This document shows, piece after piece, positions 30,946 to 64,000 of a stretch of DNA of 64,000 nucleotides. Made by a program: the position numbers and the translations under genes. A model generated the notes under the pieces. The model saw nothing but the letters and a program-made list of their open reading frames with translations. It searched no databases and had not been told where the DNA came from. Position 1 is the first letter of the stretch. Each line of letters begins with the position of its first letter. Source of the stretch: Phycicoccus jejuensis (GTDB lineage: Bacteria; Actinomycetota; Actinomycetes; Actinomycetales; Dermatophilaceae); the NCBI RefSeq assembly GCF_000720925.1, contig NZ_JOEE01000007.1:1-64000 (forward strand), given 5' to 3'.

Positions 30946-32352
30946 TCAGCGGGGGACGGCCTCCGCGAGCGCCTCGACGGCCTGCGTGAAGCACTGCTCG
31001 GGCGGGGTGACGAGACCGGCGCCGACCTGTCCGGTGCCCGCGACGCGGCCGGCCATCCCCGTGTTGATCTGGGGCAGCTCGCCGGTGCGGACGACCTTGG
31101 TGACGTCGATGCCGACCGGCGTCCCGCGGAAGCCGAGCACCGGCACCTGGTAGACCGGGTGCTCGCCGACGGTCACCTCGTACATCCGGCGGGTCGCGGC
31201 GAGAGCGAACGGCACGTCGCCGCCGACGAACCGGACGATGGCCGGCGCCGCGGCCATCGCGAAGCCGCCGATGCCGCCGGTCTCGGTGATCGCCGAGTCG
31301 CCGATGTCGGGGTTGGCGTCCTCGGGTCCGTAGTCGCCGAGGAAGAGCCCCTGCGGCGTGTTCGCCGGGCCGGTGAACCAGCGGTCGCCGGTGCCCGAGA
31401 CGCGGATGCCGAAGTCGGTGCCGTTGCGCGCCATCGTCGTGACGACGCTCGACCCGGGGATGCCCTCGGCGGCGAGGGTCGCCAGCTTGCAGGCGGGCAT
31501 CCCGAGGTTGAGGAAGAAGTGCTCGTTCGCCCCCGAGAAGCGCACGGCCTCGGCGACGTCGGCCGACGACGCGTCGGCGGTGATCATCCCGGGCAGCAGC
31601 TCGCGCAGGAGCATGAGCGAGCCGGCGCGGTTGCGGTTGTGGCCCTCGTCGCCCATCTGAAGCATCTGCGCGACGATGGCCCGGATGTCGATGGGGCCGG
31701 TGCTGCGGACGGCCTGGCGCAGGATCGGGCCGAGGACGTCGCCCATCCAGCGCAGGCGCTCGACGACCTCGGCGCCGTACGCGCCGTAGCGCAGCACCTT
31801 GCCCAGGCCCTCGTTGAGCGAGCACCACGAGGTGTTGTCGTGCACCTCGTCGCGCAGGACGTAGGTCCACATCGACGGGCTGACGACGCCGGCCATCGGC
31901 CCGACCGCGCCGCGGTGGTGGCAGGGCTCGAGCTCGAACTCGCCTGCCGCGAGGCGCTGCTCGGCGTCCTCGGCGGTCTCGGCGAGACCCTCGAGGAGCA
32001 CCGCGCCGATGAGGGCGCCGCGCAGCGGCCCGGACGCGCGCTCCCACGTGATGGGCGGGCCGGCGTGGAGGAAGGTACCGCGCTCGAGGCCGAGGGCCTC
32101 CGAGGCGGGGGCGACGTCGACGAGGGTGGCCTCGGCCGCGGTCATCCGGGCCAGGGCGGTGGCGTTCGCCTCCTCGCGGCGCGGGTCGGCCATGACCCGG
32201 GCGAGGGCGTCCTCGGTGCCGGGCATCGGCGGGTGCCAGCCGGCGTCGGTGACCGGGACGGCCTGGTCGCGCAGCGCGTCGGCGAAGAGGGCGACGCCGG
32301 AGGTCGCGACGACGGGGTCGGCAGCGAGCAGGCCGCGGAGCGGGGCGGTCAT
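30946..32352 (-). CDS. DUF1116 protein, AllG (YlbE)-like carbamoyltransferase subunit
   Basis: A 468-residue DUF1116 protein homologous to E. coli YlbE/AllG. With AllF (FdrA) and AllH (YlbF), that protein has been assigned to oxamate carbamoyltransferase, which turns oxalurate plus phosphate into oxamate plus carbamoyl phosphate. Typical segments are HHRGAVGPMAGVVSPSMW, NEGLGKVLRYGA, DEGHNRNRAG, VTTMARNGTDFGIRVSG and DIGDSAITETGGIGGFAMAAAP. It overlaps the FdrA-like gene by 4 nt (ATGA). No allantoin-pathway genes are nearby, so the natural substrate here may be a different N-carbamoyl amide (see findings). Confidence 0.85.
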   Translation of the reverse strand: MTAPLRGLLAADPVVATSGVALFADALRDQAVPVTDAGWHPPMPGTEDALARVMADPRREEANATALARMTAAEATLVDVAPASEALGLERGTFLHAGPPITWERASGPLRGALIGAVLLEGLAETAEDAEQRLAAGEFELEPCHHRGAVGPMAGVVSPSMWTYVLRDEVHDNTSWCSLNEGLGKVLRYGAYGAEVVERLRWMGDVLGPILRQAVRSTGPIDIRAIVAQMLQMGDEGHNRNRAGSLMLLRELLPGMITADASSADVAEAVRFSGANEHFFLNLGMPACKLATLAAEGIPGSSVVTTMARNGTDFGIRVSGTGDRWFTGPANTPQGLFLGDYGPEDANPDIGDSAITETGGIGGFAMAAAPAIVRFVGGDVPFALAATRRMYEVTVGEHPVYQVPVLGFRGTPVGIDVTKVVRTGELPQINTGMAGRVAGTGQVGAGLVTPPEQCFTQAVEALAEAVPR

Positions 32353-33839
32353 CGGGCACCTCCGAGCAGGGAGACGGCGTGCCGGGTGGCCGCCGCGTTG
32401 GACAGGAAGACGGACGCGCCGGCCGCGGCGAGCGCCTCGGCGCAGCGGCTGCGACCCTGGGGGTCGGCGTCGGTCCCGTTGAGGGAGAGGACGACCGGCA
32501 GCGCTCGGCCGTCGGCGTGCGCGGTGTCGCGGGCGGCGCGGACGGCGTCGGCGAGCTCGCCGGCGGGGTCGGGATGGGCGCCGTGCCCGAGGACGAGGTC
32601 GAGCAGGAGGACGCCGCAGGTCGGGTCGGCGGCCTCGGCGGCGATCCGCTCCATCCGCAGGGTCGGGTCGATCATCGGGTGGGCGCGGCCGCGGGTCAGC
32701 TCGTCGGCGCCGAAGTCGACGACGACGTGCCCGGTGCCCGTGAGGTCGGCGCCCAGCGCCGGCTCGTGGCCGAGGTTGGACGTGATCGGGCCGAGGGTCT
32801 CGGTGGCGACCAGCAGCGACTCCTCGGCCAGGGTCCCGCCGCAGAAGAGGCCGCGCAGGGCCGCACCGACGGTGAGGCCGGCGTCCTCGGGGGTGGCGGT
32901 CGTCGCGGGCCAGGTCGGCACGGTGACGCCCTCCGCGGCGAGCGCCTGCTCGACGGCGGCGGTGAGGTCGGGGCGGCCGGCGCCGAGGGTCGCCCAGTGC
33001 ACGCGCAGGCCGAGGTCGGCCGCCTCCGCCCGGACGGTCTCGAGCACGGCGTCGTCCGGGGGCTTGGAGACGACGAGGACCCACTCGGTCGACGCGTCGT
33101 CGGCGAGCGCCCGCAGCGCCTGCCGCGTGGAGCGACCGCCGACGGCGGCCTTGAGGTCGCGACCGCCGACGCCGAGGCAGTGGCTGACGCCCACCTCCGC
33201 GGCCTCCAGGAGGCACATCGCCTGCTGCGCACCGGTGCCCGACGCGGCGACGATGCCGACCGGGCCCTGGCGCACGACGTTGGCGAACCCCAGCGCGACC
33301 CCGCCGACGAGCGCGGTGCCGCAGTCCGGCCCCATGACGAGGACGTCGGCGGCGGCCGCGGCGTCCTTGAGGGCGACCTCGTCCTCGACGGACACGTTGT
33401 CGGAGAACAGCATCACCGAGGCCCCGGCGGCGATGGCGTCGTAGGTCTCGGTGACGGCGTGCGCGCCGGGGACCGAGACCACGGCGAGGCCGGCGCCGGC
33501 CCGACGGATGGCCGAGCCGAGCGTGGCCGGCGGGACCTCGTCGGCCGCGCCGGTGTCGGACGAGGTGGCGGAGAGGGCGCGCAGGGCGTCCTCGACGGCG
33601 GCGAGGCCGCTCTCGACGCCGGCCTCGTCGTCCGCGCGGACGGCGACGACCATGTCGTTGGGCCCGGCGTCGGTCGGCACCTCGAAGCCCATCTGGCGCA
33701 GGACGTCGACGTTGAGCTCGGTGGCCATCGCGACCTGGGCCGCCTGCACCCCCGGGGCGCCGGCGACGCTGCGGGAGACCTGCATGAGGCTCACCGAGTC
33801 GTGGTAGGCCCCTCGACGGAGCTCGACGTGGACGGTCAT
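32349..33839 (-). CDS. FdrA-like (AllF) carbamoyltransferase subunit
   Basis: A 496-residue protein of the FdrA/succinyl-CoA-ligase-like family. An N-terminal region (MTVHVELRRGAYHDSVSLMQVS) is followed by a CoA-binding-like Rossmann domain (GPDCGTALVGGVALGFAN, GIVAASGTGAQQ, the family motif LGVGGRDL) and a C-terminal ligase-like domain containing LDLVLGHGAHPDP. In E. coli FdrA/AllF is part of oxamate carbamoyltransferase. It overlaps both neighbours by ATGA junctions, so the three subunits are translated together. The acid-thiol-ligase fold suggests phosphate-group chemistry, in line with carbamoyl phosphate formation. Confidence 0.87.
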   Translation of the reverse strand: MTVHVELRRGAYHDSVSLMQVSRSVAGAPGVQAAQVAMATELNVDVLRQMGFEVPTDAGPNDMVVAVRADDEAGVESGLAAVEDALRALSATSSDTGAADEVPPATLGSAIRRAGAGLAVVSVPGAHAVTETYDAIAAGASVMLFSDNVSVEDEVALKDAAAAADVLVMGPDCGTALVGGVALGFANVVRQGPVGIVAASGTGAQQAMCLLEAAEVGVSHCLGVGGRDLKAAVGGRSTRQALRALADDASTEWVLVVSKPPDDAVLETVRAEAADLGLRVHWATLGAGRPDLTAAVEQALAAEGVTVPTWPATTATPEDAGLTVGAALRGLFCGGTLAEESLLVATETLGPITSNLGHEPALGADLTGTGHVVVDFGADELTRGRAHPMIDPTLRMERIAAEAADPTCGVLLLDLVLGHGAHPDPAGELADAVRAARDTAHADGRALPVVLSLNGTDADPQGRSRCAEALAAAGASVFLSNAAATRHAVSLLGGAR

Positions 33840-63525: not shown

Positions 63526-63537
63526 GAGGAACATCCC

Positions 63538-64000
63538 GTGCCCGACGCCATCGAGGTCCGCAAGGTCCCGCTGCACACCGTCTCCGACGCCTCCGAGCTC
63601 GGCAAGCTCATCGACGCCGGCGTCATGGAGGCCGGCCGCGTCATCGCCGTCATCGGGAAGACCGAGGGCAACGGCGGGGTCAACGACTACACGCGCATCA
63701 TCGCCGACCGCGCCTTCCGCGAGATCCTCGTCGAGAAGGGCGCCGACCCGGCCAAGGTCAAGGAGATCCCGATCGTCTGGTCGGGCGGCACCGACGGCGT
63801 CATCAGCCCCCACGCCACCGTCTTCGCGACCGTCCCCGCCGAGCAGGCGCCGCAGACCGACGAGCCGCGCCTCACCGTCGGCTTCGCGATGAGCGAGCAG
63901 CTGGCCCCCGAGGAGATCGGCTACCTGCCGATGGTCGAGAAGGTCGCCGCCGCGGTCAAGGTCGCGATGGAGCGGGCCGGCATCACCGACCCGGCCGACG
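63538..64000 (+). CDS. Barbiturase (ring-opening amidohydrolase), cut by the window edge
   Basis: The first 154 residues of a cyanuric acid amidohydrolase/barbiturase-family enzyme read IEVRKVPLHTVSDASELGKLIDAG, then VIGKTEGNGGVNDYTR, WSGGTDGVISPHATVFA and LTVGFAMSEQLAPEEIG. The GKTEGNGGVNDYTR and SGGTDGVISPH segments are family hallmarks. The N-terminal wording is, to my recollection, much closer to Rhodococcus barbiturase than to AtzD/TrzD cyanuric acid hydrolases. It opens barbiturate to ureidomalonate. The GTG start follows GAGAGGA. Only the first of the three repeated domains is visible. Confidence 0.88.
   Translation, partial: MPDAIEVRKVPLHTVSDASELGKLIDAGVMEAGRVIAVIGKTEGNGGVNDYTRIIADRAFREILVEKGADPAKVKEIPIVWSGGTDGVISPHATVFATVPAEQAPQTDEPRLTVGFAMSEQLAPEEIGYLPMVEKVAAAVKVAMERAGITDPAD

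Follow-up and report, generated by a model that had tools for sequence, protein, structure and literature searches.

The first 64,000 bases of a 265 kb contig of Phycicoccus jejuensis (genome 4.0 Mb), referred to here as the window, carry a gene set which probably encodes an oxidative route for pyrimidines that includes an energy-conserving branch. The set begins with genes for all three subunits of an AllFGH-type carbamoyltransferase and ends with a carbamate kinase gene placed 12 bases 5' of a barbiturase gene. The described oxidative route for uracil ends in urea and malonate and yields no ATP. In this genome AllFGH and carbamate kinase almost certainly serve the barbiturase pathway, and gene content and context indicate that ureidomalonate is most probably the direct substrate of AllFGH. 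In the proposed scheme a permease would import uracil, a molybdenum hydroxylase would convert it to barbiturate and barbiturase would open the ring to give ureidomalonate. That acyl-urea would be split with phosphate, by an AllFGH of the clade found in barbiturase genomes, into malonamate and carbamoyl phosphate, and carbamate kinase would use the latter with ADP to give ATP, CO2 and ammonia. An amidase encoded within the cluster would hydrolyse malonamate to malonate and ammonia. A class III CoA-transferase would then form malonyl-CoA from malonate, and an AccD/AccA-like carboxyltransferase would act as a biotin-independent malonyl-CoA decarboxylase, with malonate ending as acetyl-CoA and CO2. 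Both uracil nitrogens would be released without urea or urease. The net energy gain would be the one ATP from carbamate kinase, minus the thioester of the CoA-transferase step and any ATP used by HyuAB. We infer every reaction of this scheme, above all the substrate of AllFGH, from the genes. No paper joining barbiturase with AllFGH or carbamate kinase was among those listed by searches of open-access literature, nor one treating barbiturate, uracil, the oxidative pathway and Rhodococcus together.

The carbamoyltransferase genes lie on the minus strand in the order allG-allF-allH. AllG (30946..32352, DUF1116) scores 325 bits against PF06545, is 48% identical to E. coli AllG and has a solved relative in 3clq. 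The AllF/FdrA subunit (32349..33839), which resembles the alpha subunit of succinyl-CoA synthetase, scores 106 bits against PF00549 and 382 bits against the NCBIfam FdrA model (below the cut-off of 433); it is 37% identical to E. coli AllF, and its solved relative is 3dmy. AllH (33836..34645, DUF2877) scores 84 bits against PF11392, with 35% identity to E. coli AllH over 110 amino acids. A PucR-type regulator (34722..36038, plus strand; PF13556, PF17853) is divergent from these genes at a distance of 76 bases, and the remaining pathway genes are all on the plus strand. Carbamate kinase (62590..63525, plus strand) scores 340 bits against TIGR00746, whose cut-off is 358, and 302 bits against NF009007, over the cut-off of 266. 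The original prediction, made from this DNA alone, had named a permease, a molybdenum hydroxylase, barbiturase, carbamate kinase, the three All subunits and a PucR regulator, and profile matches bear out every one. It also placed barbiturase within the window; the plus-strand gene does start there, at 63538, but runs to 64665 of the contig, past the window end at 64000.

The association of barbiturase with AllG extends well beyond this genome. Among 394 genomes drawn evenly from the class (138 genera), the AtzD/barbiturase family was found in 82 and AllG in 88. Both were present in 75 genomes, an AtzD-family member alone in 7, AllG alone in 13 and neither in 299 (Fisher p 3e-58, odds ratio 246). 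Counted by genus, the corresponding figures were 35, 6, 8 and 89 (p 6e-19); the statistics ignore phylogeny past the genus step. Co-occurrence of barbiturase with DUF1116 genes, which had been put forward as a check, is therefore far above chance. Five of the seven genomes with an AtzD-family member alone score no more than 439 bits, and the four of these members that were read are 35-39% identical to the window enzyme and do not belong to the barbiturase clade. G064, which is 72% complete, and G256 make up the remaining two. In a second set, 50 of 80 barbiturase loci from GTDB genomes were taken into an AllG genome test; AllG was present in 47, and the three genomes without it are Rhodococcus/Rhodococcoides. 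The two sets partly overlap (G007 and G176 have identical coordinates) and so are not independent. If the scheme is correct, about one fifth of the sampled class genomes (75/394) make ATP from uracil by substrate-level phosphorylation, with no need of urease.

Allantoinase shows little of this association. It was over cut-off in 50 of the 88 AllG genomes and in 122 of the 306 others (odds ratio 2, p 0.005; the four best candidates per genome were scored and the list was tallied by eye), and an allantoin reading of AllG was dropped on account of this weak association. Within the 75 genomes with barbiturase and AllG, allantoinase was over cut-off in 47 and not seen over cut-off in 28, the window genome included (best E 6.6e-70), an outcome in favour of the predicted co-occurrence without allantoinase. 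Matches to E. coli AllC, AllD and AllE were absent at E 1e-3 from the 100 kb read (G+C 74%), in agreement with the earlier claim that allantoin genes are missing. The 47 genomes with allantoinase would suit an alternative in which barbiturase is followed by an ordinary ureidomalonase giving malonate and urea, as in Rhodococcus, while AllFGH and carbamate kinase act elsewhere, for example on oxalurate from purines. Against it, AllG tracks barbiturase and hardly allantoinase; the ureidomalonase in question would be the amidase of the cluster, and the alternative is taken up again with that enzyme.

A quick AllG tree, for which long-branch warnings were given, was built from 61 rows: 38 of 62 rows from barbiturase genomes, the window and 22 others, drawn from the best-scoring loci plus separately read stretches, with weak AllGs such as that of G101 excluded. 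The 39 rows from barbiturase genomes that represent their best AllG form one group, with a support of 100 in the SH-like approximate likelihood ratio test (SH-aLRT). The same group takes in a row from G158, whose assembly is 80% complete and in which barbiturase was not detected. Outside the clade are E. coli AllG, extra AllG copies and the single AllG of R. jostii. At 13 AllG positions a single residue is shared by at least 97% of 64 clade rows, and neither E. coli AllG nor any of the five biuret-type rows has it. Examples are R422, where those six sequences have D/E, and G435, where they have H.

Carbamate kinase is directly 5' of barbiturase in 75 of the 80 GTDB loci. The five loci lacking this arrangement are L009, where carbamate kinase is about 8 kb off, and four from Rhodococcus/Rhodococcoides. 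AllG is further away. Among 72 placed barbiturase-AllG pairs of the class set, 40 are within 50 kb (12-47 kb) and 7 within 150 kb, and the arrangement of the window, with AllG upstream and on the opposite strand, recurs in 41 of the 42 pairs closer than 100 kb. The distances of 12-47 kb, the pairs on different contigs and the unrelated genes that intervene in the window (flotillin, M36 peptidase) could also mean that nitrogen-scavenging operons stand side by side through common regulation, with no shared function. This is very unlikely, given the matched presence and absence over 138 genera and the single AllG clade of barbiturase genomes.

The fate of urea bears on the same question. Neither urease nor urea carboxylase was over cut-off in the window genome. 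In the GTDB set urease was over cut-off in all four Rhodococcus/Rhodococcoides genomes and in 8 of the 47 other barbiturase genomes, and urea carboxylase in two of 51 (G026 and G033). Thirty-eight of the 47 had neither enzyme over cut-off, and in these genomes nitrogen would be stranded by a route that forms urea. As a trend across the class, depletion of urease was not found: it was over cut-off in 25 of the 75 genomes with barbiturase and AllG and in 114 of the 319 others (p 0.8; three candidates per genome were scored and tallied by eye, and G105, G118 and G307 of the 75 were strong but below cut-off). The argument from urease therefore concerns single genomes and gives no evidence of selection. 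G256, which carries barbiturase but lacks AllG, has urease; the incomplete G064 has none over cut-off. Urease-free genomes would also be explained, compatibly with the gene content, if an ordinary ureidomalonase came first and the AllFGH of the clade split urea with phosphate to ammonia and carbamoyl phosphate. We consider this extremely improbable, as phosphate cleavage of urea is energetically steep and the only match to the Rhodococcus amidase in the window genome is just 33% identical. The activity known for AllFGH is on an acyl-urea, according to PMC11326118.

That source describes E. coli AllFGH as assayed with oxamate and carbamoyl phosphate (Michaelis constant, KM, for oxamate 36.9 mM) and places AllFGH in urease-negative enteric bacteria, E. 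coli O157:H7 excepted, which is the same logic as that proposed here. The E. coli enzyme, with its carbamate kinase AllK, and the window system have the three subunit families and a carbamate kinase partner in common, and ureidomalonate presents the same N-carbamoyl amide as oxalurate, one CH2 further. The differences are that the window AllG falls outside the E. coli branch and differs at the 13 clade-fixed positions, that the 100 kb read has no match to AllC, AllD or AllE, and that carbamate kinase sits with barbiturase and not with allFGH. If the scheme holds, a second substrate would be added for the enzyme of three subunits that was described in 2024, and the genes that annotation of these genomes now calls oxamate carbamoyltransferase or CO dehydrogenase would be misnamed.

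Rhodococcus offers the most direct comparison, and a ureidomalonase activity is mentioned for the oxidative pyrimidine pathway of R. erythropolis in PMC3758960. The R. erythropolis locus (L070) has a barbiturase 85% identical to that of the window and shares the UraA-type permease, the molybdenum hydroxylase, the HyuA start after CoxG, the CoA-transferase and the carboxyltransferase. It differs in that AllG is missing from the genome and carbamate kinase from the locus, and in having urease and an amidase of its own 3' of barbiturase. An amidase-signature protein is directly 3' of barbiturase in all four Rhodococcus/Rhodococcoides loci (L070:11248-12726, L061:11213-12661, L047:9424-10929 and L076 near 11.2 kb). 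Proteins at least 79% identical to it occur only in those four of 51 genomes, and the listed matches elsewhere are 27-52% identical; the 33% match in the window genome is probably GatA. The position of the gene makes it a candidate for the Rhodococcus ureidomalonase. The lineage that lacks both clade AllG and a carbamate kinase adjoining barbiturase carries another amidase next to the latter gene, which favours the coupling of barbiturase to AllFGH suggested in the original prediction. A dedicated ureidomalonase just beyond the window would have spoken for the described route, and no candidate for one was found: the next four genes 3' of barbiturase encode, in order, a YqcI/YcgG protein, a DUF1989 protein, a product of 163 residues that matches no Pfam family, and a channel of the formate/nitrite type, and Pfam identifies no amidase among them.

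Conversely, an amidase is found between CoxG and HyuA in 18 of the 18 loci where both are visible; it is of the amidase-signature type in 14 and of the nitrilase type in 4. Nocardioides and Pseudonocardia have the amidase-signature type. In L009 CoxG and HyuA are 10 kb apart, and in L070, the one readable Rhodococcus locus, the gap is about 300 bases and leaves no room for an amidase. The window has a nitrilase-superfamily protein in this slot (45584..46483, plus strand; PF00795, 172 bits), whose best solved matches are YLR351C and PH0642, with Nit2 within the top six. That two unrelated amidase families occupy the same slot suggests a single function, and hydrolysis of malonamate fits, because malonamate remains after carbamoyl transfer. 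We consider it fairly likely, from position and family, that the slot enzyme is a malonamate amidase. Naming the amidases by solved relatives was abandoned since it gave nothing decisive: malonamidase E2 was a remote match, at 90 bits for the Nocardioides type and 70 bits for the Rhodococcus type. The alternative raised above, a slot amidase acting as ureidomalonase, draws on the amidase-signature slot enzyme, which shares about 40% identity with the Rhodococcus amidase and passes the same NCBIfam subfamily model, NF005686. The slot enzyme of the window genome is of another superfamily, carbamate kinase adjoins barbiturase in 75 of 80 loci, and in 38 of the 47 other genomes no urease or urea carboxylase reaches cut-off; taken with the co-occurrence figures, this makes it unlikely that AllFGH acts elsewhere.

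The identity of the ring-opening enzyme was examined separately. It scores 474 bits against PF09663, 690 bits against the solved barbiturase 5hwe and 317 bits against the nearest cyanuric acid hydrolase. In the fetched loci, a set that counts some genomes twice, 118 have a member at least 68% identical (up to 93%); after a gap, six further copies are below 40%. The window enzyme also passes the NCBIfam cyanuric acid amidohydrolase model (471 bits, cut-off 360), and because the model of that name fires on barbiturase, the name is unreliable here. At the position of Arg188 of cyanuric acid hydrolase, Asn is found in 118 of 118 loci and in 5hwe, but also in four of the six distant copies. This residue was dropped as diagnostic because Asn occurs in the barbiturase loci and most distant copies alike; a published account gives glutamine at the equivalent position, as against the Asn read here. 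The distant members in L206, L208, L209, L210 and L211 are 35-39% identical, and four of the six copies are without the cyanuric acid hydrolase arginine.

A cyanuric acid pathway, in which the ring would be opened to biuret and AllFGH would split biuret with phosphate to urea and carbamoyl phosphate, would account for the profile match. It would also have parallels elsewhere, since sets of AllFG and carbamate kinase do occur near biuret-hydrolase-like genes (L174-L178 and PMC12625717). This reading was rejected on sequence distance and partner genes, and is scarcely credible: the scores favour barbiturase by far, the permease, molybdenum hydroxylase and CoA genes would suit uracil and malonate, and AllG is absent from the five class genomes whose AtzD-family members are all distant. 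L174-L178 themselves, from genomes without barbiturase, are the nearest other sets, with a BiuH-like cysteine hydrolase gene adjacent in three and 6-7 kb off in two. The nitrifier allFGHK genes beside biuret/triuret hydrolase genes have in common with the window allFGH plus carbamate kinase and no upstream allantoin genes; in the nitrifiers a cysteine hydrolase is the partner and the set is read by the authors as an oxalurate pathway (PMC12625717), whereas here the partner is barbiturase. There is perhaps an even chance that the AllFGH enzymes as a whole are acyl-urea phosphorolases whose clades differ in substrate, with oxalurate in E. coli, ureidomalonate in barbiturase actinobacteria and biuret-type compounds beside cysteine hydrolases. 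In the breakdown of pyrimidines and ureides such a family would be an energy-conserving alternative to urea-forming hydrolysis, for which Rhodococcus would use an amidase and urease instead. In R. jostii (L193:9072-12593) an AllG-like gene is followed, one gene on, by an amidase that has 53% identity to the slot enzyme of Nocardioides; the two may be another pair of carbamoyltransferase and amidase.

Several observations weigh against an AllFGH branch from ureidomalonate. Carbamoyltransferase equilibria generally favour ureide synthesis. R. jostii, the fourth of the Rhodococcus/Rhodococcoides genomes, is a barbiturase genome, and its only AllG lies outside the clade; G256 is a true exception, 100% complete with a barbiturase 70% identical and no AllG. 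In G404, which has both genes, carbamate kinase is missing from the 20 kb read around barbiturase, and the sole AllG of G101 scores just 202 bits. As to distance, the two genes are on separate contigs in 24 of the 72 class pairs and 1.7 Mb from each other in one, and barbiturase and AllG are 2.1 Mb apart in G006 (contigs not matched by name). The class-wide frequency of urease, given above, belongs here too. The resemblance of the amidase-signature slot enzyme to the candidate ureidomalonase of Rhodococcus means that it could share that activity, and the AllFGH genomes G037 and G045 carry a 49-51% identical relative of the Rhodococcus amidase elsewhere. Finally, the scheme offers no step for the HyuAB pair, whose conserved position is between the hydroxylase genes and carbamate kinase-barbiturase; since R. 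erythropolis has a HyuA as well, this subunit is not tied to AllFGH.

The remaining genes of the plus strand, in order, begin with a UraA/RutG-like NCS2 nucleobase permease (39506..41005; PF00860, 248 bits; RutG, 351 bits, below cut-off). The molybdenum hydroxylase follows as an FAD subunit (41139..42008; PF00941, PF03450), an Fe-S subunit (42005..42517; PF01799, PF00111) and a large subunit (42514..44916; PF02738, PF20256). The active-site loop of form I aerobic CO dehydrogenase is AYRCSFR. The large subunit has PYRGAGR in its place, in line with the original description of a hydroxylase other than CO dehydrogenase, despite a score of 1541 bits against the NCBIfam model for aerobic CO dehydrogenase group 5 ('CODH_aero_grp5'). 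Given this motif and a uracil-type cluster, that family is possibly misnamed. Gene context points to uracil as the substrate of the hydroxylase; no paper joining form II coxL with uracil came up in a search of open-access literature. A CoxG-like accessory protein (44913..45584; PF06240) precedes the slot amidase. The HyuA-like subunit (50361..52472; PF01968) is nearest in NCBIfam to caprolactamase alpha (501 bits, below the cut-off of 1000), the HyuB-like subunit (52469..54460) scores 457 bits against PF02538, and an NmrA-like protein accompanies the pair.

Processing of malonate via CoA is somewhat favoured by the last genes before carbamate kinase. The class III CoA-transferase (58659..59855; PF02515, 394 bits) is nearest in NCBIfam to succinate-glutarate CoA-transferase (315 bits, below the cut-off of 750), and the AccD/AccA-like carboxyltransferase (59852..61351; PF01039, PF03255) gives low scores against malonate decarboxylase beta and gamma (40 and 27 bits). 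One or other of these genes is within the locus in 50 of 80 cases. Three of the four Rhodococcus/Rhodococcoides loci are among the 50, a pattern that would follow from malonate being the product shared by both routes. The earlier gene inventory, right in all the parts it named, had overlooked the nitrilase-superfamily amidase, HyuAB and these two genes, and with them the putative handlers of malonamate and malonate.

Genes for flotillin, a GH25 protein, an M36 peptidase and an EamA transporter are interspersed in the locus. Between PucR and the permease, 36288-37877 encodes a 529-residue protein with no Pfam or NCBIfam match. The YqcI/YcgG and DUF1989 genes directly 3' of barbiturase (contig 64754-66222) are found in the same place in locus L044. 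L044 and L053 are Phycicoccus loci to which the window is highly similar, which would fit the Dermatophilaceae/Intrasporangiaceae. A possible source of uracil from nucleosides is encoded at 3505-6396, where genes for adenosine deaminase, pyrimidine nucleoside phosphorylase and cytidine deaminase lie about 33 kb from the permease.

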